Below are positions 3,858-25,082 of a DNA stretch of 64,000 nucleotides, one piece after another (position 1 is the stretch's first letter; each line of letters starts with the position of its first letter). Made by a program: the position numbers and the translations under genes. The DNA comes from Bolinopsis microptera. Its lineage: Eukaryota > Ctenophora > Tentaculata > Lobata > Bolinopsidae. The stretch is from positions 3,699,096 to 3,763,095 of the forward strand of contig NC_087080.1 of assembly GCF_026151205.1 (NCBI RefSeq), given 5' to 3'. Below the pieces are notes generated by a model. That model was not told the origin of the DNA. It saw only the letters and a program-made list of their open reading frames with translations, and did no database searches.

Positions 3858-6800
3858 TTAAAACTGTGACTTGATAGGGGTAACTTTGAACATCTTGCAA
3901 GATCCACTGGGAGGCAGTGTTGCGGTTATCCCATCTGTGTAGACTCCCAGATCCCTGAAATTAGTTTTGAATGTTACACGTAAATCTGTTTTTTATTACT
4001 CACTGAACATATCGAAATATCTTTCGAAAATGGAATGACTGATCGGGATTTCAATAGTTCTTGTAAAATTGTTAGTGTGATATTTCTCATCAAAGAATAC
4101 CGATCCTGCACTGTGAAAGACAGAGAATGTTAAAGAACTCACAAGTGTGTGAAGAGATCCCTAACATGAGCGGTCTTGGTTTTTATCAGGAGTTGTTTGA
4201 AGGTAGCAGTGTAAGGTTTGGGTAGACCGCTGCTGTCTCGTCGGTACATTACAACCGCGTAGCTTCCGTCAGCTAGTTCACGGCTCTGTAACATTAGTTA
4301 TTGATTCGAGAACTGGAAAAAGTTGTCGGTGTTTTAGAGCAGAGATTTTACATCATATCGGCCATTCGAGAACCAATTGCTTGGTTTCAATGTGTTAATA
4401 CACTATACAATATTGAATATACTGTGAAGATAAGGTTAGATATTCTTACCCAGTATTCGTGTTTCTTCTTTGCATCCTGATACACCCGTACACCTTGTTT
4501 TCCCATCGGATCCTGAAAGATAAAACGTACACATAGTATCGGGATGCATTGATGTATAACATTAAAATGTATATACAATCAGCTGTATGGCTGTATTGAA
4601 TCCACACAAGTTATTTCATGCAGCAAGGAGTAAGGACGTGAGCCAGTTAATTAATTCTGTGGTATAGTTCGATCGATTCGATCGATCGAATCGAACGCAC
4701 GCGCGGTCATTATAGACCACATGGCATGTATCAATTTATCGTTTGGTGATCGCGCGCGCGGTAAAACGACTTGAGTCACATGATGGTTGCCAATTCAACA
4801 CCTAAATGTGTTCCTACTGTTACGACAAAGGTCACCAGAGTCAAATTACGGCGATAAAGAACTCGGGACCTAAGACTTGAGGTAGCGAAACGTAAGATAA
4901 TTTCTACACCGGTGCAAGCAGTGCAGAATAATAATCTAATCTACAAACCTGTCGTGAAGGACATAAATTCGATTTTAAAATGTGAATGTGGATAGAATTA
5001 TTGATAAACTTTAAGCACAAACGGAGTTATAGAAACCTGATCTACGGCGATAACTTCCTGGTTCATGAGAATATCTTTCTGCCACTGCCGCAAGGTTCTC
5101 AAATCGTTGCTCATGTAGAGGGGCGCCGCCATCATAGCCCACATCGCCATCTGAACACAAATAGAATATACAGAAGGGGAAATGAGGATAAAACTAACAT
5201 CGTCCTTAACTATAACGGCCTTATTACTTAATTACAGTAAACAAATTAATTACAGTAAAAGAATATGAAGATGAAAACAAACTGTTCGACCGTCTTTATT
5301 CAGATATATTTTGACACAGTTAATGCGATTGTAGGGCCAAGTCAGCACTGAAATACCCGCTCACAGAGTTACTGAAATACCCGCTCACAGAGTTACTGAA
5401 ATACCCGCTCACAGAGCAGCTGAGTCAGTAATGAAATACCCGAAATAGCTGAGTACCTGAGTTTCACTCTGTTCAAAAGACAAGCCGTAATCTCCGATGA
5501 TTAGCATGTCGGGGTCGTTCCAGTTTCCTGGTCCAGCATACGAAGCAAGGTTACCGGCATTGTCACCAAACCTGAGGTAATTCACTGTGTGCTTTTTAAA
5601 TCTCTGTGCTAAATCATCAAATTGAAAATTGAAATAATCTCCATTCATTAAAATTGATAGTTTGAACGCGCACATCATTTTTATATCTATAAATTATTCA
5701 AGAAGTGTGAGATAATTTCATGAATGAATATAATAAATTTAATAATAAATTGATTTATCTATCCAGACCAAGTATATGTATGTTATTATATTACATAAGT
5801 TAAGCCATGCATCATGATTCATGCTATCTCAATTATCACTCAATTACCACTCAATTACCACTCAATTACCACTCAATTACCACTCAATTATCACTCAATT
5901 ATCACTCAATTATCACTCAATTACCACTCAATAATACGTTCAACACTGGCCCAGGAGTCTTGTACATCCTCCGTGTTCCTCCACAGGTTACAGGTTTCTG
6001 CAATCTCAGCGTATGGTATCTTGTCAGTTTCACGATACTCATAGAGCGGCCATTCGCACGAGTAGAGAACGGGGCGCCCGGTCGCATTCAGCGCAGCGCC
6101 AACAGCGGGGAACCCTGAAATATGCATCATGCAGTGGCGCAGTACTCATAGTTACCAGTTTATGATGTTTTGTACGGAGTTCCAGGAGTCCTGAATGTCA
6201 GCGTAGTTCCTCCATAAGTTGCAGTTTTCAGCGATATCACCGTACGGTACGTTGGGTTTGTCGTGAAGGTAAGCGGGCCAGCTGCAGCTGTACAGGATAG
6301 GACGCCCAGTATCGTTCAGCGCTTTAGTGACCGCTGGGTAACCTGCCGCAGACAAAACAGCTTGTGTTACAAATTACAGCATGCTACAATCAACAGTTTA
6401 CACTGGACATTTAACTTGGGATCTATTTGAACTAAGTCCAAAAGGGTATGTACTATGTTGGGTGTTTAGCTTATTATTTTTAAGCTATATCTTAATTTCA
6501 ACATGAACTTTAGAATCAATCACTTGACTATAACCATGGACTATAGACCATTGTCCATTAAACATATTAATATTACATATGTATGTATGTATGTATATAA
6601 TAAATATATCGACTGTAAACATTGACAACAAAGCCTCACATGAAACTGCCCACAATACACCACACGACACGACGGTTCATCAGATTATTGGCATATCACA
6701 TGATACCTTTCCAATTATATGGATCAAAGACCATTGATAACGAGAACTAAGTGAACTGTAACCAGTCATAAAATGAGAACCTAATTAGCAGGATTTAGTA

Positions 6801-9800
6801 AATTAGCTTCCGCATTAGATACTGGAAAATTCAGATCATGAATTCAAAGGCACAGTAGTTTAATCACATGACCTACAATTCGTCACATTATTCACATATC
6901 ACAGATATTTTCCAATTAAATGGATCAAAGACTATTGATCAATAAGTGAACCATAGCCAGTCATAAAATGAGAACTTCATCAGCATTATGAAGACGATAA
7001 GCTTCAACATCAAATATCAAATACTGGAATATCCTGATAATTATTTTGAACAGATAAACGTACCTGTTGAAAACTCTGAAGCGTTGCAATAACAACCATC
7101 TAGTTTCAGAGAATCAATCCCCCAACTAGCAAACAAGTTAACGTCGTCCTCTATGTGATCCTGGGACGGAGATTAGTTAATTGTTTAGTAATTTGTCAAA
7201 GGATTCGATATTTTGACGTGTGTTTTTTAAGATATTCATACTTTTACATCAATTGTAATACATTGGTTTGGTAAATAATTGATACTGTAATTTGTTGTTA
7301 AACACCGAACAGCGCACCGTTAAGTGAAATTTAATAATCGATATACTACATTCTCTGCCGCTTTAGCAATTGAAATGGTCAGGAGGAACACATTCGCAAA
7401 TTTGACATGGTATTATAAAACCATAATAATCGATATGGATCACCTCCCGCCGCCATAACCAAACTGTAAAAGTAAAACGCAATTTTTAGGCTAGTTCTGA
7501 ATCAGCAAATAATATCATAATACCAATTTGAATACAGTCATCATAAACTACATATTATACAAATAAAGGGGGCGAAACCAGTTGCTGTAAACAAAAGTTA
7601 TCAACATTCATTACTCAAACTATATATTACAGATAGATAAATTTAGCTAAAGTTATGATCGCTATTCTGTACAACTAAATAAATATCACTTAAAATAAAC
7701 TTCTTCTAAATAAATATCAAGATTTTTACACTTCCTGCTAAACTAATACCCAGCCAGCAAAATAATAATACGCAGTTTCCTATGAAGCCTCAAGCATATG
7801 ACGTCATGAAATTACATAGCTATATCATCGTCATCATCCTCCAAGTCTAGATTCTTGTTGATGGCCCAGGTACAGAACTCATCAAACAAGATCGTACCCC
7901 CACCGTTAGTATCAATCTTCCTAAACTCTCCCTCGACATCAGCTATCGGCCCAACCCACACCTCAATCATGCTCTGAGATTTCTTGAATTCTTCTACACT
8001 GATTCTGCGATCACCATCCTCGTCTGTACGACAGAAAGCCACCCAGTATTCAAAGTACTGGCGCAGGGAGAGCAGGAAGAACTTGAACTCTCGTAGCTCA
8101 ATGAACTCATCCCCGGAGTCCTTGTTCGATTTGGTGCTGTTTTTAGCGATCTGGAACGCTCTCATAATGGCCGGTTTAGCGTTGAAAATCTGGTCCACTT
8201 TTAGGATGTCCCTGACAGCTTTGTCGACCTCAGCAAGGGAGAGGATGCCGTTTCCGTTGTCGAAATCTTGAAACATCTTCTTGCGCCGTGCTTTGGAGGC
8301 GGGGTCGCTTCCAGTGGGGAGTTTGGCGTTGATTGCCGTCCAGTCAATTTCGGAAGACATAATATTTAACCTGTTAGAGTTTATGTTCAAATCTCATTTT
8401 AAATCGTAACAATTACACAAATAATGCACAGATAAAACATGAAAACAACTACGTGAATCAGAGACAACGTATACGTGTGGTGGGTGCAGATTCGCACTAT
8501 TGACCTAATACTGCACTTTATCGCATCACCATAAAAACAAAAGCGTTTCCAGTAAATCAAAGCAACCAATAACTACATACTAACTGCTACTAAATTAAGA
8601 ATCTTAGCTCAACAAACTTAGAACAATCATAGTCAACATAGAAATACAGTTTCAGTAACTCAGGAAATGAACTGTCTACCAGATCAATGGCGGATCTCAT
8701 GACAAAGGAGAGAGCACACGGATGACACGAATGACAAAACAAAGAGGACACGGCAGGATCATGCCATATAACATCATATCCAGGAGAATCTCACAGTGCT
8801 TCGGACTCAGACAAAAGGCAGAAGGGTGGGAACAAAGATCATTACCAAGGTGGACTTTACAGGTAGCCGAGGACAAGGCTAACGAATTCCGACTCCGAGT
8901 AGAATCAGTAGCAGGATTACAGCTTACATATGAACGTTGGCAAGAGCAAGGTTGTGCACTGAATATGGAGGATCGATCTTGCGACTCCGGTACAAAGTGG
9001 ATAGGAATACAGTTATACTAGAGCCTTGGTGATTTCAACATTTCGTGGGATTTCTCACGTGCTACTTCCTCCTGTTAACAGAACCATTAACAAGTCACGT
9101 GGTTTAGTTGCAGTGTTTAAAGTGAGAGCCACCATTTTGTAGGCCCAGATAGATCTAAATACTAGTGGCCGGGTGGCGAGGTGTTTCTTCCGACACGTGA
9201 GAGAAAATAACCAATGAGCTCCTAGCATTGAACCAGTCGAAACACAAAATCATCGTCACGTGTTAAAACAGGTATGACTCACCTCCCCAGTCCTCACTAG
9301 TATAGGTACTGAGTATAGGTACTAAGTATAGGTACTAAGTATAGGTACTAAGTATAGGTACTAAGTATAGGTACTGAGTATAGGTACTGAGTATAGGTAC
9401 TAAGTATAGGTACTAAGTATAGGTACTGAGTATAGGTACTAAGTATAATAGGTACTAAGTATAGGTACTAAGTATAGGTACTAAGTATAGGTACTAAGTA
9501 TAGGTACTAAGTATAGGTACTAAGTATAGGTACTAAGTATAGGTACTAAGTATAGGTACTGAGTATAGGTACTGAGTATAGGTACTAAGTATAGGTACTA
9601 AGTATAGGTACTAAGTATAGGTACTAAGTATAGGTACTGAGTATAGGTACTGAGTATAGATACTAAGTATAGGTACTAAGTATAGGTATTAAGTATAGGT
9701 ACTAAGTATAGGTACTAAGTATAGGTACTGAGTATAGGTACTGAGTATAGATACTAAGTATAGGTATTAAGTATAGGTATTAAGTATAGGTACTAAGTAT

Positions 9801-12800
9801 GGGTACTGAGTAAAGGTACTAAGCTAAATAGCCTAGATTACCTAAAATGTGGCTTTTGTTCATTAGTTGAATGTGCGAGGGGGTGGATGAAAGATCTTAT
9901 TTTGCTCTCACTCTTTTGAGCAATAAGAGAGATTGGTTATTAACAATAAAATAAATAACAATTTAAGCAACAGTAACACTAAGTATTCGTAGCAACAGTT
10001 GCGTAGCACCAGCCCAACAGTTGAAGATACAACAAAGGAGTACAAGTCTTGAAACTGCAAAATACGGGGAGACAATAAAGATAATATTAAATAAATTCGC
10101 ATTTGAATAAATGTCAAATAATGTTATGGTGAGGATAGTTGGTCACAATTGTTGATTATACCATTTACAGTGATTCAAAGTGAGTTATTCCTATTGACTT
10201 TGCTGCGTTACGCGTACGCTATCCTCATTGGATGATACTAAAAGTTTGCAAATGGTTGGTGCACACTTACATACTACAAGAGCTTAAAAAATTGAAGATA
10301 GCTAATAGTATTGTCTAATAATCTTTAGTCATCACCTCTAATTTAAAATAAATCAATAAACTCGAGATGCAATGAGTACATTTTAAAAAATGGATGGCTT
10401 ATATTAAAGTATCTAAATATCTAAATAGACAATCTTCTAAATTAGAAATGTTTCCGATAAACAACTCTTCAGCATTATATTTGTATTACTTTATTCAGAA
10501 AACTGACAGTTTTAGCGATATAAACACTTAAAATTAACGAATATCGACAGTAGTCTAACCGTAAGAGCCCTCAGTCACATGTAAATGTACTCGATACTAA
10601 AAAATGTGCATGAATTTTGAAAATCAATTTTCAGCAGAGTAACAAGTGATATTATATAATGAACGAATGGTATGTTGTGTTGGAGGATTGTCAATAGAGT
10701 TCCACAGATTATGACCGCAAGTTAGAGCTCCTGTGAACTAGGGAGGAAGATAAAGTGTAAGCTAACTAATTAAAGATATGCTAGCTAACCAGTGACAGAT
10801 TTGTTAATTTCCCAGATGATATCAGAGAGGGCAAACTGCAATACCAACAAGTCTATAAATACTCTCCAATATGCTCCGGGCTCTGAATCTAACAAGTCCC
10901 AAACACTCAAAAAGATCCAACAGCCATAAGACAAAGCGTAATTGAGGTTGCTCTCACTGCTACTGCAAATGGTCTAATACACTTGCACTGTACCATTATG
11001 TGTCAGAATGCGGGGTGCTTTAACAAAGTGAGAAGTGGTACAATAACTTGGAAGTGGGCTGGTAGAAGCTGCCAATAGGATATTGGAATTGTACCACGTG
11101 TGCAAGTAGAATTGTACCACGTGTGCAAGTAGAATTGTACCACGTGTGCAAGTAGAATTGTACCACGTGTGCAAGTAGAATTGTACCACGTGTGCAAGTA
11201 GAATTGTACCACGTGTACAAGTAGAATTGTACCACGTGTGCAAGTAGAATTGTACCACGCGTGCAAGTAGAATTGTACCACGTGTGCAAGTAGAATTGTA
11301 CCACGTGTGCAAGTAGAATTGTACCACGTGTGCAAGTAGAATTGTACCACGTGTGCAAGTAGAATTGTACCACGTGTGCAAGTAGAATTGTACCACGTGT
11401 GCAAGTAGAATTGTACCACGTGTGCAAGTAGAATTGTACCACGTGACGAGGTAAATCGCGGTATATTTTCAAGTAATGGTAATTTGGTTATTATCGGGGT
11501 GAAACAGTACGGGCAGACTACAAGGAAGCATTTTTCATCAATTTAGTAATTTCCAAGTAATCCACTTAGTCCAATCCGTTGACAATTACCACAATTTAGA
11601 ATTTTGTAAAAGTGTGGTAATACCATGTTCTACGAATTTGTAATAGCCTATCTAAAGATAATTTTTCAGGTCAATCAAGTATACAAGAAGTGATTTCATG
11701 TTTGTCATAGCAAGAAATTACAGTAAGTTCCAACCTTAGTACCAGGGTAGCCACCGCAAGTCTTGGTTCCGTAGTCCTCGTATATTCCTATCTTCAGTCC
11801 CATGCTATGTATTGCATCAGCTAGCGCCTGGTGTTACATCATTATACATTGACTATTGTAGGGACATAAACATTTATATCCTGTGTGGCTATGATAAATT
11901 AATACTGAGAATAAATAATGGCAATATTCCAGGAATAAATGCATCAGAAAGTGCAATGAACGACATTTAAAAAAACATGTCAAGGTTTCAAAGTTTGCAT
12001 TATACTAACAGGTATTCCCTCGGGGAAAAGTTCAGGGTTAGATACAAGCTTTCCATCTGCTCCCCTGTCCCTCAACATCCAACAATCATCAATATTAATG
12101 TACTCGTAGCCAACATCTGCATATCCCTCGTATTTCATTAACTTTGCTGAGAATAAATATATTAACTACGCTACTACAGTCACAAACTTCAGTTTATCAA
12201 CCAAATGTCGGTATAATGGTGAAACGTGATTTTAAACTTAAAGACAGCTATTGATAAGTTATATCATAATAACATGAAGCCAGGGAGAGAACATTGTCCT
12301 CCCCCTCTCCCCCTCTCCGGGCCTCTCCCTCGCAGCACTCACCCATTTCCAGGAACAAGTCCGCACTAATGCAGTTGTAGGGATCATTCTTACAATCTGT
12401 GTTACATCTGTACCTCTCCCAATTCAACCTGAAACAACAAATATTATAACAACTATGAACAGAAAGGGATGATTGTTTAATAGTTTAAAACTCTGTTAAT
12501 TATCTTGTTTTACCAGCAATTGAAATATATTTTATCGCAATCCTGCACATTGAGGCCATGTAAAAATAATTACAATACTAGTTTCTTGGTTTATCAGAGG
12601 TTATTTTGGGACAGGTTTACGAATTTATCGAAAATCCCGTTACCTAAACAAATGAAATGAAAAATGTTGAGGGATCTGGCAAACTCCTGGTAAATAGGAT
12701 ATTTTATCTGTTATCAATAAACTTATTATTAATTAATTATCAATAAACTTACCATCCCATTGGAGGTGTCCTGGCCAATCCATTGTCAAGTGCAGTGGAT

Positions 12801-12841
12801 ATGTGTAGGGTACCAAGTAGCAACAATCCTAACAATATCAT
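3858..12841 (-). CDS. GH27 alpha-galactosidase / alpha-N-acetylgalactosaminidase with alternative exon 6
   Basis: Exons in order: 12841-12753, 12428-12343, 12146-12010, 11827-11735, 7160-7064, then either 6A (6342-6156) or 6B (6114-5925), 5571-5457, 5150-5037, 4512-4450, 4285-4143, 3954-3858 (TAA). All junctions are GT-AG and phases agree, giving 406 aa with 6A or 407 with 6B (human NAGA 411, GLA 429). Residues 1-17 are a signal peptide, followed by [13 protein letters not shown]. The nucleophile is Asp156 in LKLDGCY; the acid/base Asp is in the alternative exon; [11 protein letters not shown] and [11 protein letters not shown] follow; the C-terminal beta domain ends TPIKSQF. The enzyme should be lysosomal or secreted and remove terminal alpha-Gal or alpha-GalNAc from glycoconjugates. 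It lies tail to tail with the MPDU1-like gene. Start chosen because the signal peptide begins there. Confidence 0.92.
4660..4700. repeat. GATC-rich palindrome
   Basis: CGATTCGATCGATCGAATCG is a perfect 20-bp palindrome within a run of TCGATCGA words, in the intron between exons 8 and 9 of the glycosidase gene. It has no assigned role and may form a cruciform. Confidence 0.7.
5347..5419. repeat. Three copies of a 24-bp repeat
   Basis: CTGAAATACCCGCTCACAGA-type units, 24 bp each, three in direct succession, lie in the intron between exons 7 and 8 of the glycosidase gene. A fourth degenerate copy follows at 5432-5445, inside the same intron and close to exon 7. Confidence 0.8.
5828..5932 (-). 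repeat. 11-bp tandem array overlapping the exon 6B donor
   Basis: About nine copies of ATTGAGTGGTA / ATTGAGTGATA on the minus strand. The real exon-6B donor, GAGTG|GTAATT, is the first unit. Several downstream units repeat the same GAGTGGTAATT context as potential decoy donors; the variant GTGATA units lack GT at that place. Confidence 0.85.
5925..6114 (-). CDS. Alternative exon 6B: GLA-type specificity loop
   Basis: 190 nt, acceptor ATTTCAG, donor GTAATT; the same phases as 6A and one codon longer. It encodes [10 protein letters not shown], then YSCEWPLY with Glu188 and Leu191, then [14 protein letters not shown] with acid/base Asp217. Glu and Leu are the residues (E203, L206) by which human alpha-galactosidase A selects galactose. 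Protein similarity to 6A is high outside the loop, so the pair arose by exon duplication. Its donor is continuous with an 11-bp tandem array on the intron side. Confidence 0.88.
6115..6155 (-). other. 41-nt GT-AG spacer between exons 6A and 6B
   Basis: On the minus strand it begins GTAACT and ends TTTCAG. It is far shorter than every other intron of this gene (164-4574 nt). It is probably too short to be spliced, and joining 6A to 6B would in any case shift the frame. Confidence 0.8.
6156..6342 (-). CDS. Alternative exon 6A: NAGA-type specificity loop
   Basis: 187 nt, acceptor GCGGCAG, donor GTAACT; enters in phase 1 (completing Gly168) and leaves in phase 2 (TG of a Trp codon). It encodes [10 protein letters not shown], then YSCSWPAY with Ser188 and Ala191, then [14 protein letters not shown] with the acid/base Asp216. 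Human alpha-N-acetylgalactosaminidase uses Ser188 and Ala191 at exactly these positions to admit the N-acetyl group. I infer that transcripts with this exon encode an alpha-GalNAc-preferring enzyme. The exon is open, with no damage seen. Confidence 0.88.
7812..8390 (-). CDS. Calflagin-like EF-hand protein, intronless, nested in glycosidase intron
   Basis: One uninterrupted ORF of 192 codons; Met11 (MSSEIDW) is an equally good start and is favoured by family similarity. The layout follows flagellar calcium-binding proteins (calflagins): an [11 protein letters not shown] segment, a degenerate first EF-hand around residues 42-54 (one residue short), a degenerate second near 94-103, a third with loop Asp123-Glu134 that has Arg in place of the usual Gly, and a canonical fourth, [12 protein letters not shown] (160-171). 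It ends in an acidic tail ([10 protein letters not shown]). There is no N-terminal Gly for myristoylation, unlike trypanosome calflagins. Likely a Ca2+ sensor with one or two working sites. It lies on the same strand as the host gene, inside its 4.6-kb intron 4; the lack of introns suits a retrocopy or an ancient single-exon gene. Function not known. Confidence 0.85.
   Translation of the reverse strand: MNINSNRLNIMSSEIDWTAINAKLPTGSDPASKARRKKMFQDFDNGNGILSLAEVDKAVRDILKVDQIFNAKPAIMRAFQIAKNSTKSNKDSGDEFIELREFKFFLLSLRQYFEYWVAFCRTDEDGDRRISVEEFKKSQSMIEVWVGPIADVEGEFRKIDTNGGGTILFDEFCTWAINKNLDLEDDDDDIAM
8400..9290. other. Intronic sequence, upstream side of the EF-hand gene
   Basis: A 99-codon plus-strand ORF at 8722-9021 has no recognisable family or splice partner and is not called. 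The first 300 bp upstream of the EF-hand start presumably contain its promoter, but no clear TATA box or other element could be assigned. Confidence 0.4.
9298..9825. repeat. 13-bp minisatellite, about 40 copies
   Basis: The unit is AAGTATAGGTACT with GAGTATAGGTACT variants, tandem and nearly uninterrupted (one 3-bp insertion near 9447). It lies in intron 4 of the glycosidase gene. The A/G variant units alternate in blocks, which suggests block duplication. Confidence 0.95.
11083..11446. repeat. 23-bp minisatellite carrying CACGTG boxes, 16 copies
   Basis: The unit is AAGTAGAATTGTACCACGTG plus TGC. Sixteen copies run from the first CACGTG at 11095 to the last at 11440; one copy reads CACGCG and one has TACA for TGCA. 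Because 23 is not a multiple of three and the unit has no stop on the minus strand, all three minus frames stay open. These ORFs are artefacts of the repeat. Confidence 0.95.
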
Positions 12842-23440: not shown

Positions 23441-24799
23441 TCAATCATTCGAGTGGCCTGCACCAATGAACTCCCGTTTGTGACGTATCATCTCCCTCCA
23501 AAGTTTTCGGTCACTAGCCATCTTGCTCGCTCCTTCTAGGTCTATGTCAGTGTTTCCTGTAAACACTGCAGCATCTTCCAGCAAACATTTCCTCCAGTTC
23601 TTTCTTGGACGGCCCCTAGATCTTCTCCCATGCGCAGGGGTCCAGTTAAGCAGGTACTTAGGAAGCCTAGTGTCTGGCATTCTGGTGACATGGCCAAACC
23701 AACGCAGGCGGTTTGCTCCTATGAACGTCTCTACTGGATTTATCTTTGCACGCTCCAGCACTTCAGTGTTTCTAACCCGATCGAGCCATCTTATCCTAAG
23801 TATTCTCCTCAAGCAACGCTGATGGAACACCTCAAAGCGATGTAGCTGCTTTTTGGTTGTGTTCCAAACCTCACTACCATATAACAATATTGTCAAAACT
23901 GCTGCCTTATAAATCCTGATCCATATATTACTCAGTTGATTGAAGGCTCCGGAAGCTTTCTGAATCCTAGCTGACAGCTCACGGTCGATAGTACCGTCGC
24001 TGGAGATAATTGTACCTAAGTACGTAAAGTCACTAACTTGCTGCACTGGCGTGTCTTCAACAGTGATGTTCACTGTGGCTTCTTTCGTGTATGGCCGTTG
24101 AGAGGTTGCTTTACCAATGACCATAGCCTCAGTCTTTTTACCATTGATTCTGAGACCTCCCTGGGCACCATACATACACAAAAGGTCAGTTGTTTCTTGA
24201 AGACCTTCCTCGCTGTTATCCAGTACAGCCATGTCATCTGCATAGTCTGTATCTAACACAGTGATATCATCAACAAGCGGACTGATAGATCTTTGAAGAA
24301 CCGCTCCGTGGGACACCACTTTGTTGCTTTCTGTTCTCTCAGCAGCCACATTGAGGCAGACATTAAAAAGTGGGGGACCCTGAATGTCTCCTTGGCCACT
24401 GCCTGAACTTACTTCAAACCATTCTGATAGTTCACCATTGTGTCTAACAGCACTGACAGTTCCATTAAAGAATGCCTGTATTATTCGAATGTATTTACAT
24501 GGCAGGCCATAATGACTGAAAGCTTTCCAAATATAATTCCTGTCGATAGAATCAAAAGCTGCCTTGAAGTCCACAAAATTTACATACAGGGGGAGATTAT
24601 ATTCAATGCAGTTATGTATAATAGTGCGGAGTGAATAAATCTGATCAATGCATGATCTGTTCTTTCTAAACCCACACTGATTGTCTCGTAGCAAACTTTC
24701 TAAACCGTCACTCATGCGTTGTAATATGATGATTTGATACAGTTTAGATGCTGTAGATCTTAGAGTGATCCCCCTGCAGTGTAGATGCCATAATTTCAA
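23441..24799 (-). CDS. Non-LTR retrotransposon reverse transcriptase, 5'-truncated
   Basis: A 452-codon uninterrupted ORF with the RT motifs in order: CRGITLRSTASKLY (8-21), CGFRKNRSCIDQI (42-54), VNFVDFKAAFDSIDR (73-87, catalytic Asp), SGSGQGDIQGPPLF (132-145), DTDYADDMAVL (183-193, catalytic YADD) and DFTYLGTIISSDG. Then comes the C-terminal RRLRWFGH-like segment (here NRLRWFGHVTRMPD) and GRRSRGRPRKNW. It copies the element's RNA. The apurinic endonuclease domain expected upstream is missing, so it is a 5'-truncated insertion. A TAGTAGTA-like stretch on the minus strand at 23410-23425 may be its 3' microsatellite tail. The ORF is intact, suggesting recent insertion, about 280 bp upstream of the kinase gene start. 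Confidence 0.85.
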   Translation of the reverse strand: MKLWHLHCRGITLRSTASKLYQIIILQRMSDGLESLLRDNQCGFRKNRSCIDQIYSLRTIIHNCIEYNLPLYVNFVDFKAAFDSIDRNYIWKAFSHYGLPCKYIRIIQAFFNGTVSAVRHNGELSEWFEVSSGSGQGDIQGPPLFNVCLNVAAERTESNKVVSHGAVLQRSISPLVDDITVLDTDYADDMAVLDNSEEGLQETTDLLCMYGAQGGLRINGKKTEAMVIGKATSQRPYTKEATVNITVEDTPVQQVSDFTYLGTIISSDGTIDRELSARIQKASGAFNQLSNIWIRIYKAAVLTILLYGSEVWNTTKKQLHRFEVFHQRCLRRILRIRWLDRVRNTEVLERAKINPVETFIGANRLRWFGHVTRMPDTRLPKYLLNWTPAHGRRSRGRPRKNWRKCLLEDAAVFTGNTDIDLEGASKMASDRKLWREMIRHKREFIGAGHSND

Positions 24800-25082
24800 A
24801 TAGTGGAGTCAGCAGGACTCCAATCGATAGACCCAGGCAATCAATTGAACAGCTAGCCCACCAATGGAAATGAGGTTCAGATTGGACCAATTCTATGCAT
24901 TGATCTCTGTGTTGGACTGGAACAAATTGAGTCCCATTCAGCTTTGAATTTGTGATTTAGCAAAACTGGGCCTGATTGATTTGGTCTGTTATCTAGATGA
25001 AACTTTGCTGAGTTGTCAAATAACCGCTTTTTTGTATAGGAATGGTTTAGTGCTGTTCTGATAATGGATAGGGTAAGATATA

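Follow-up and report, generated by a model that had tools for sequence, protein, structure and literature searches.

A single GH27 glycosidase gene of the ctenophore Bolinopsis, found in the 64-kb stretch of DNA analysed here (the window), carries two tandem versions of its sixth coding exon, one encoding the specificity loop of an α-N-acetylgalactosaminidase (NAGA) and the other that of an α-galactosidase (GLA). We consider it reasonably probable that the two exons are mutually exclusive and that the choice between them shifts a single lysosomal enzyme between α-GalNAc and α-Gal substrates. In such a switch the second version, 6B, would be used in mRNA, the two exons would exclude each other sterically, the substrate would change with the exon, and the product would be located in the lysosome. 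If both isoforms are made, a single animal gene would provide both of the lysosomal activities that, when lost in people, lead to Fabry and Schindler diseases. The two-residue change involved would be the one with which engineers converted the human enzymes, and gene duplication and exon duplication could then arrive at the same specificity pair.

The gene is complete and lies on the minus strand from 12841 to 3858, a span of about 9 kb with 11 coding positions, one of which exists in two versions. Each isoform has ten introns, and every junction is GT-AG. Coding exon 1 (12753..12841) holds the start codon and encodes a signal-peptide-like N-terminus, followed by exon 2 (12343..12428), exon 3 (12010..12146), which contains D78 and D79, exon 4 (11735..11827), and exon 5 (7064..7160), which contributes the nucleophile D156 and the donor common to both isoforms. 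Next come the alternative exons, the NAGA-type 6A (6156..6342, 187 nt) and 6B (5925..6114, 190 nt), which is of the GLA type at the specificity loop, separated by a spacer of 41 nt (6115..6155). Exon 7 (5457..5571) provides the acceptor common to both isoforms, and exons 8 (5037..5150), 9 (4450..4512), 10 (4143..4285) and 11 (3858..3954, stop codon included) complete a reading frame that is intact from start to stop. The sequence-only reading had placed two tandem versions of exon 6 at exactly these coordinates, both open, bounded by AG and GT, and equal in entry and exit phase. All of this held on recomputation, the phases being identical since both lengths are 1 mod 3. Its description of one gene with two interchangeable exons also stands, as either 6A or 6B alone yields one intact open protein, isoform A of 406 aa or isoform B of 407 aa, which are about 94% identical overall.

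Several other features lie in or near the gene. Intron 4 hosts an apparently intronless EF-hand gene on the same strand (7812-8350, minus; FCaBP_EF-hand, PF22592, 2.4e-23) and two minisatellites, one of 13 nt × 40.2 copies (9299-9823) and one of 23 nt × 15.7 copies (11086-11445). An imperfect direct repeat, its units about 200 nt apart, lies in intron 5 (6676-7046). A reverse-transcriptase ORF is present further along the window (23441-24808, minus; PF00078, 1e-24), and no RNA families or tRNAs were found within the 64 kb.

Membership of the animal NAGA/GLA branch of GH27 is indicated by full-length homology and by a PF16499 score above the cut-off of that profile. Thirteen active-site residues have been listed for these enzymes, 11 of them common to NAGA and GLA and the other two being the specificity Ser and Ala (PMC5445309). 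Residue roles were assigned by alignment to this list, and all 11 shared residues, including the nucleophile and the acid/base Asp, are present in isoform A and in isoform B. Exon 6A encodes SCSWPAY with S188, A191 and Y192, followed by R212 and D216, and 6B encodes SCEWPLY with E188, L191 and Y192, followed by R213 and D217. Both the specificity residues (S188/A191 in CSWPA, E188/L191 in CEWPL) and the acid/base Asp that had been claimed for each exon are thus in place, the latter as D216 in A and D217 in B.

The GLA likeness of 6B is, on sequence comparison, confined to the specificity loop and some associated residues, on a scaffold that appears NAGA-like. The best PDB match of 6A is chicken NAGA (1ktb, 1.9e-21), and the whole of 6B also matches NAGA best (1ktb, 4.7e-20), with human GLA behind (3.8e-16). 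Isoform B in full scores 436.5 bits (8e-130) against 1ktb and 407.8 bits against human GLA (1r46). Among the 6A matches is 3lx9, named α-galactosidase A, which carries SCSWPAY and which we take to be an engineered reverse swap from GLA to a NAGA-type loop. In all, 24 aligned positions distinguish 6A from 6B, and not just the two of the specificity pair. Leu191 accompanies Glu188 in six of the eight aligned family rows with Glu, and Leu is found in none of the 57 rows with Ser. Five residues of 6B, Phe169, Glu188, Leu191, Thr207 and Val217, are associated with the Glu type; this suite was picked from the 6A/6B differences after 6B had been viewed, which makes it partly circular, and the rows are not independent. 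Three of the seven positions tested for Glu-type association (183, 214 and 173) showed none. Some 6B residues are absent from the 65 aligned family members, for example Val183 and Thr214, the latter two positions before the acid/base Asp of isoform A.

In the proposed mechanism, the alternative exon would form the N-acetyl recognition loop and would also supply the acid/base Asp. Splicing of exon 5 to 6A would give a NAGA-type enzyme, in which the small Ser188 and Ala191 would leave space for the 2-acetamido group of α-GalNAc. Splicing of exon 5 to 6B would give a GLA-type enzyme, in which Glu188 and Leu191 would occupy that space and favour α-galactose. The predicted activities rest on residue swaps in the human enzymes. 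GLA is reported to be unable to use GalNAc owing to Glu203 and Leu206, with Ser and Ala needed for GalNAc (PMC8791529). For human NAGA, the S188E/A191L change is reported to raise α-Gal specific activity two- to threefold and kcat/Km about fourfold; the same paper discusses an earlier report of 43-fold and describes wild-type human NAGA as already cleaving α-Gal substrates and degrading Gb3 (PMC5478728). The original statement that exchanging these residues alone swaps the specificity of the two human enzymes calls for a nuance: NAGA with S188E/A191L does gain α-Gal activity, but its kcat/Km rises only about fourfold. Because that gain is small and wild-type NAGA already cleaves α-Gal, the switch in Bolinopsis would likely be less than a clean swap and consist mainly of lost GalNAc acceptance with some gain of α-Gal activity.

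The same results on human NAGA lend weight to a different account, in which both exons are spliced and the isoforms, much alike in substrate range, are set apart by stability, pH optimum, localisation or efficiency. That 6A and 6B differ at far more than the two specificity positions fits this account, as does C. elegans, which is reported to do both jobs with one enzyme (PMC548690). Against it, 6B pairs Glu188 with Leu191 as GLA does, other residues that go with this pairing are also present in 6B, and it is via these two side chains that GLA excludes GalNAc. We regard isoforms of similar range as unlikely, and a change of substrate as the better reading.

6B is an old and constrained exon. 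A tblastn search with 6A finds the 6B stretch at E 4e-25, and the window yielded neither a further copy of exon 6 nor another GH27 gene, the remaining matches having E 0.21 or worse. The two exons share 38 of 62 aligned amino acids (61%), with pN at 0.296 and pS at 0.754, a value that is saturated and beyond correction; shared fourfold codons are identical in 4 of 17 cases, the level of unrelated third positions. When 6A was left to drift neutrally to the same DNA divergence in 5000 runs, the highest amino-acid identity reached was 50%, against the 61% observed, and 10% of the runs were free of stops; this is a rough control, as the drift started at the present-day 6A and not at the ancestor. 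Of the 25 columns in which 90% or more of 66 rows agree, 6B retains 24. The sole loss is Y169F, and F at this position is found in four of the eight Glu188 rows and in none of the 57 Ser188 rows. Because its synonymous sites are saturated while its frame and nearly all of the conserved columns are intact, long-term constraint must have acted on 6B during most of its history. Viral contigs gave no match to 6B DNA and prokaryote contigs none to a degenerate 6B pattern, which is what one expects of an animal gene.

The arrangement of the two exons is that of a mutually exclusive pair, with tandem homologous exons of equal phase whose joint inclusion is non-productive. Joining 6A to 6B, or skipping both, shifts the frame and leads to early stops, and read-through from 6A meets an in-frame TAA right at its donor. 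The spacer measures 41 nt, as against 164-4574 nt for the other introns of the gene, and is probably too short for removal as an intron, which would make the exclusion steric. For human exons, a distance of less than 50 nt from donor to branch point has been used as the steric criterion, with 57 of 629 clusters (PMC5740500). Exclusivity would then be built in, through a spacer that is hard to splice out and through the frameshift that follows double inclusion or double skipping.

The splice signals of 6B are intact and, by a simple score, no weaker than those of 6A. Scored against a general donor consensus, the two alternative exons reach 6.55 and 6.16, inside the span of 0.84-10.57 covered by the other nine donors of the gene. 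The pyrimidine counts of 6A and 6B are equal. Intron 5 and the intron that follows 6B gave no hint of selector pairing: their duplex energy of -117.4 compares with a mononucleotide-shuffle mean of -119.6, and 40 of the 60 shuffles reach an energy as low. An 11-nt tandem array of 9.5 copies (5828..5932, minus) starts within the donor of 6B; the donor-like GAGTGGTAATT recurs in five of the copies, and four more have GATAATT. Slipped 6B donors within this array would shift the frame, so the length of the repeat could tune the output of 6B.

Transcript-derived relatives bear on whether both exons are used. A protein search with isoform B scored 8000 candidates, at least 7282 of them at E ≤0.001, and the best 120 of the 7282 were examined. 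The best match, P0001 (406 aa, from a contig of 1437 bases), is 99% identical to isoform A. With a gene 9 kb long and ten introns to remove for each isoform, so short a contig is most simply taken as spliced RNA, either from this species or from a sister species. An AlphaFold model of P0001 (pLDDT 92.1, pTM 0.89) is of the isoform-A type and is uninformative on 6B. All nine representatives of the near-relative clusters (P0001-P0009) carry the CSWPA of 6A; the P0001 cluster has 6 members and the P0002 cluster 3. A region search scored on 6B alone returned 15 proteins among 32 candidates, the best of them 62% identical, and a search for 6B fragments had no match; the protein database is clustered at 90%, at which level isoform B, about 94% identical to A, could hide in A clusters. 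A fair reading is that 6A is in use, and that 6B is seldom spliced in, restricted to some stage or tissue, or not expressed in the material sampled.

The 6A-only clusters and the lack of a match in the fragment search would also suit a 6B that is a relic, formerly used and now rarely or never spliced, leaving 6A alone functional; the expansion of the 11-nt repeat from the 6B donor points the same way. Against this, saturated synonymous sites, an intact frame and the near-complete set of conserved columns show that 6B was constrained through most of its history, and its splice signals have not decayed relative to those of 6A. A very recent loss of 6B would leave no trace. We judge a relic to be unlikely too, and continue to prefer two working exons.

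The origin of 6B was approached with trees of 65 of the 134 returned proteins, hand-chosen for near relatives and phylum spread, plus the window (66 rows, or 67 with 6B). Most odd-length or tandem-block proteins (P0010, P0011, P0012, P0013, P0020, P0024, P0070 and P0097) were left out, and the coral P0130 and the other Patella isoform, P0048, were omitted as well. Glu or Gln occupies the specificity position in some of the omitted proteins, and the groups tested were named after the trees had been seen. In the gene tree, the window joins its near relatives in a short crown borne on a long stem. When exon 6 is left out (66 rows), Glu188 requires five changes, and a single clade of the eight Glu rows is rejected (p 1.5e-5). 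The tree of exon 6 only (64 columns) places 6B with the 6A exons of its own lineage, in a starred group of 14 rows that also includes two long outside rows and one other. On the exon 6 data, the AU test rejects neither 6B with the Glu rows (p 0.498) nor 6B with the 6A of its lineage (p 0.401). Removal of the trait columns leaves 6B with the Glu rows at a cost of 13.8 or 19.7 log units (AU p 0.184 and 0.21) and 6B with the 6A of its lineage at a cost of 2.6 or 6.0 (p 0.461 and 0.344); neither grouping is rejected there either. Three of nine lineage-diagnostic residues are present in 6B; the same trio is found in none of 56 outsiders, and four outsiders also have three of the nine.

Because grouping 6B with the Glu rows costs 14-20 log units once the trait columns are removed, we think it more likely that the exon was duplicated in tandem within this lineage and that 6B then converged on the GLA type than that the pair is ancient. 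An ancient pair would mean that an early animal GH27 gene had interchangeable GalNAc and Gal exons, and that the scattered Glu/Leu genes of corals, arthropods and gastropods are its descendants, which would have lost one exon or split the pair into separate genes. It draws support from the rejection of the Glu clade outside exon 6 as against its tolerance by exon 6 alone, where an arthropod-group clade (12 rows, including a tardigrade) is rejected (p 0.02). A mollusc clade (13 rows, including an annelid) is not rejected by the same exon 6 data (p 0.142). Overall, we consider an ancient pair improbable.

A search for another GH27 gene in the same genome, proposed in the sequence-only reading, led back to this gene alone. 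In the assembly (264,652,675 bases in 232 contigs), isoform A had 12 matches at E ≤10, which fall on the 12 exons of the gene including 6B, and the PF16499 profile had seven, all in this gene; the search scores the best candidates and the assembly is possibly incomplete, so a very divergent GH27 gene could escape it. The GH36 melibiase profile PF02065, an alternative source of α-galactosidase, had no match in the assembly. An assembly error or a misplaced copy of another GH27 gene, for which we found no supporting point, is hardly credible given the 41 nt between 6A and 6B, their synonymous saturation and matching phases, and the lack of a second GH27 match in the assembly to serve as the source. 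As a separate observation, the nuclear-receptor zinc finger PF00105 had no match in the 264.65 Mb, and the control genomes, which are prokaryotes, were also without matches. Known comb-jelly nuclear receptors are described as being without this zinc finger (PMC3038971), and we note as a lead that its absence fits comb jellies.

The claim that no splice-switched pair has been reported needs some qualification. No GH27 splice-switched exon pair was found in print among the matches listed, but the annotation of a limpet contains two GH27 isoforms that differ only here. Between Patella vulgata X2 and X3 (P0036 and P0048) there are 11 differences over 405 positions, every one of them within 175-199, with CEWPL against CEWPV. 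Biomphalaria pfeifferi X1 (P0013) has a tandem of a CEWPL and a CQWPG block, and doubled acid/base or variant blocks are seen in a further three proteins of gastropods (P0012, P0020 and P0024). CQWPG in a gastropod GH27 protein is a combination without an assigned specificity. Like 6A and 6B, the Patella and Biomphalaria proteins, known from automatically annotated records alone, contain alternative or tandem versions of the homologous block, a hint that it may have been duplicated in gastropods; unlike 6A and 6B, both Patella isoforms keep Glu.

Human NAGA and GLA are of the same fold family by sequence and have Ser188/Ala191 and Glu203/Leu206, respectively, at the same loop. They are the products of two genes, whereas Bolinopsis has one GH27 gene with two exons. 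In C. elegans, one gene, gana-1, serves both activities through a single dual-activity enzyme, and the abstract of that study describes no exon pair (PMC548690). Clear substrate switches via one splice event have been called rare, with CYP4F3 as the named example (PMC7434440). In CYP4F3A/B, the exon chosen determines whether the one enzyme acts on LTB4 or on arachidonic acid; this is a tissue-specific human P450 for which the switch, unlike that of the GH27 pair, was shown experimentally (cited in PMC7434440). The closest working analogue is coq-2 of C. elegans and helminths, in which the tandem mutually exclusive exons 6a and 6e remodel the enzyme core, as proposed here, and change two residues beside the substrate, which switches from 4HB to 3HA (PMC7434440). 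The enzyme and pathway are different, and coq-2 has RNA and genetic proof (PMC7434440), whereas the GH27 switch is read from DNA. Unlike in coq-2, the two alternative residues of the GH27 pair reproduce a known pair of paralogues, NAGA and GLA. The principle is already known from coq-2 and CYP4F3; we rate the GH27 exon pair as real and unusual, and the proposed switch would be a new instance of a rare kind.
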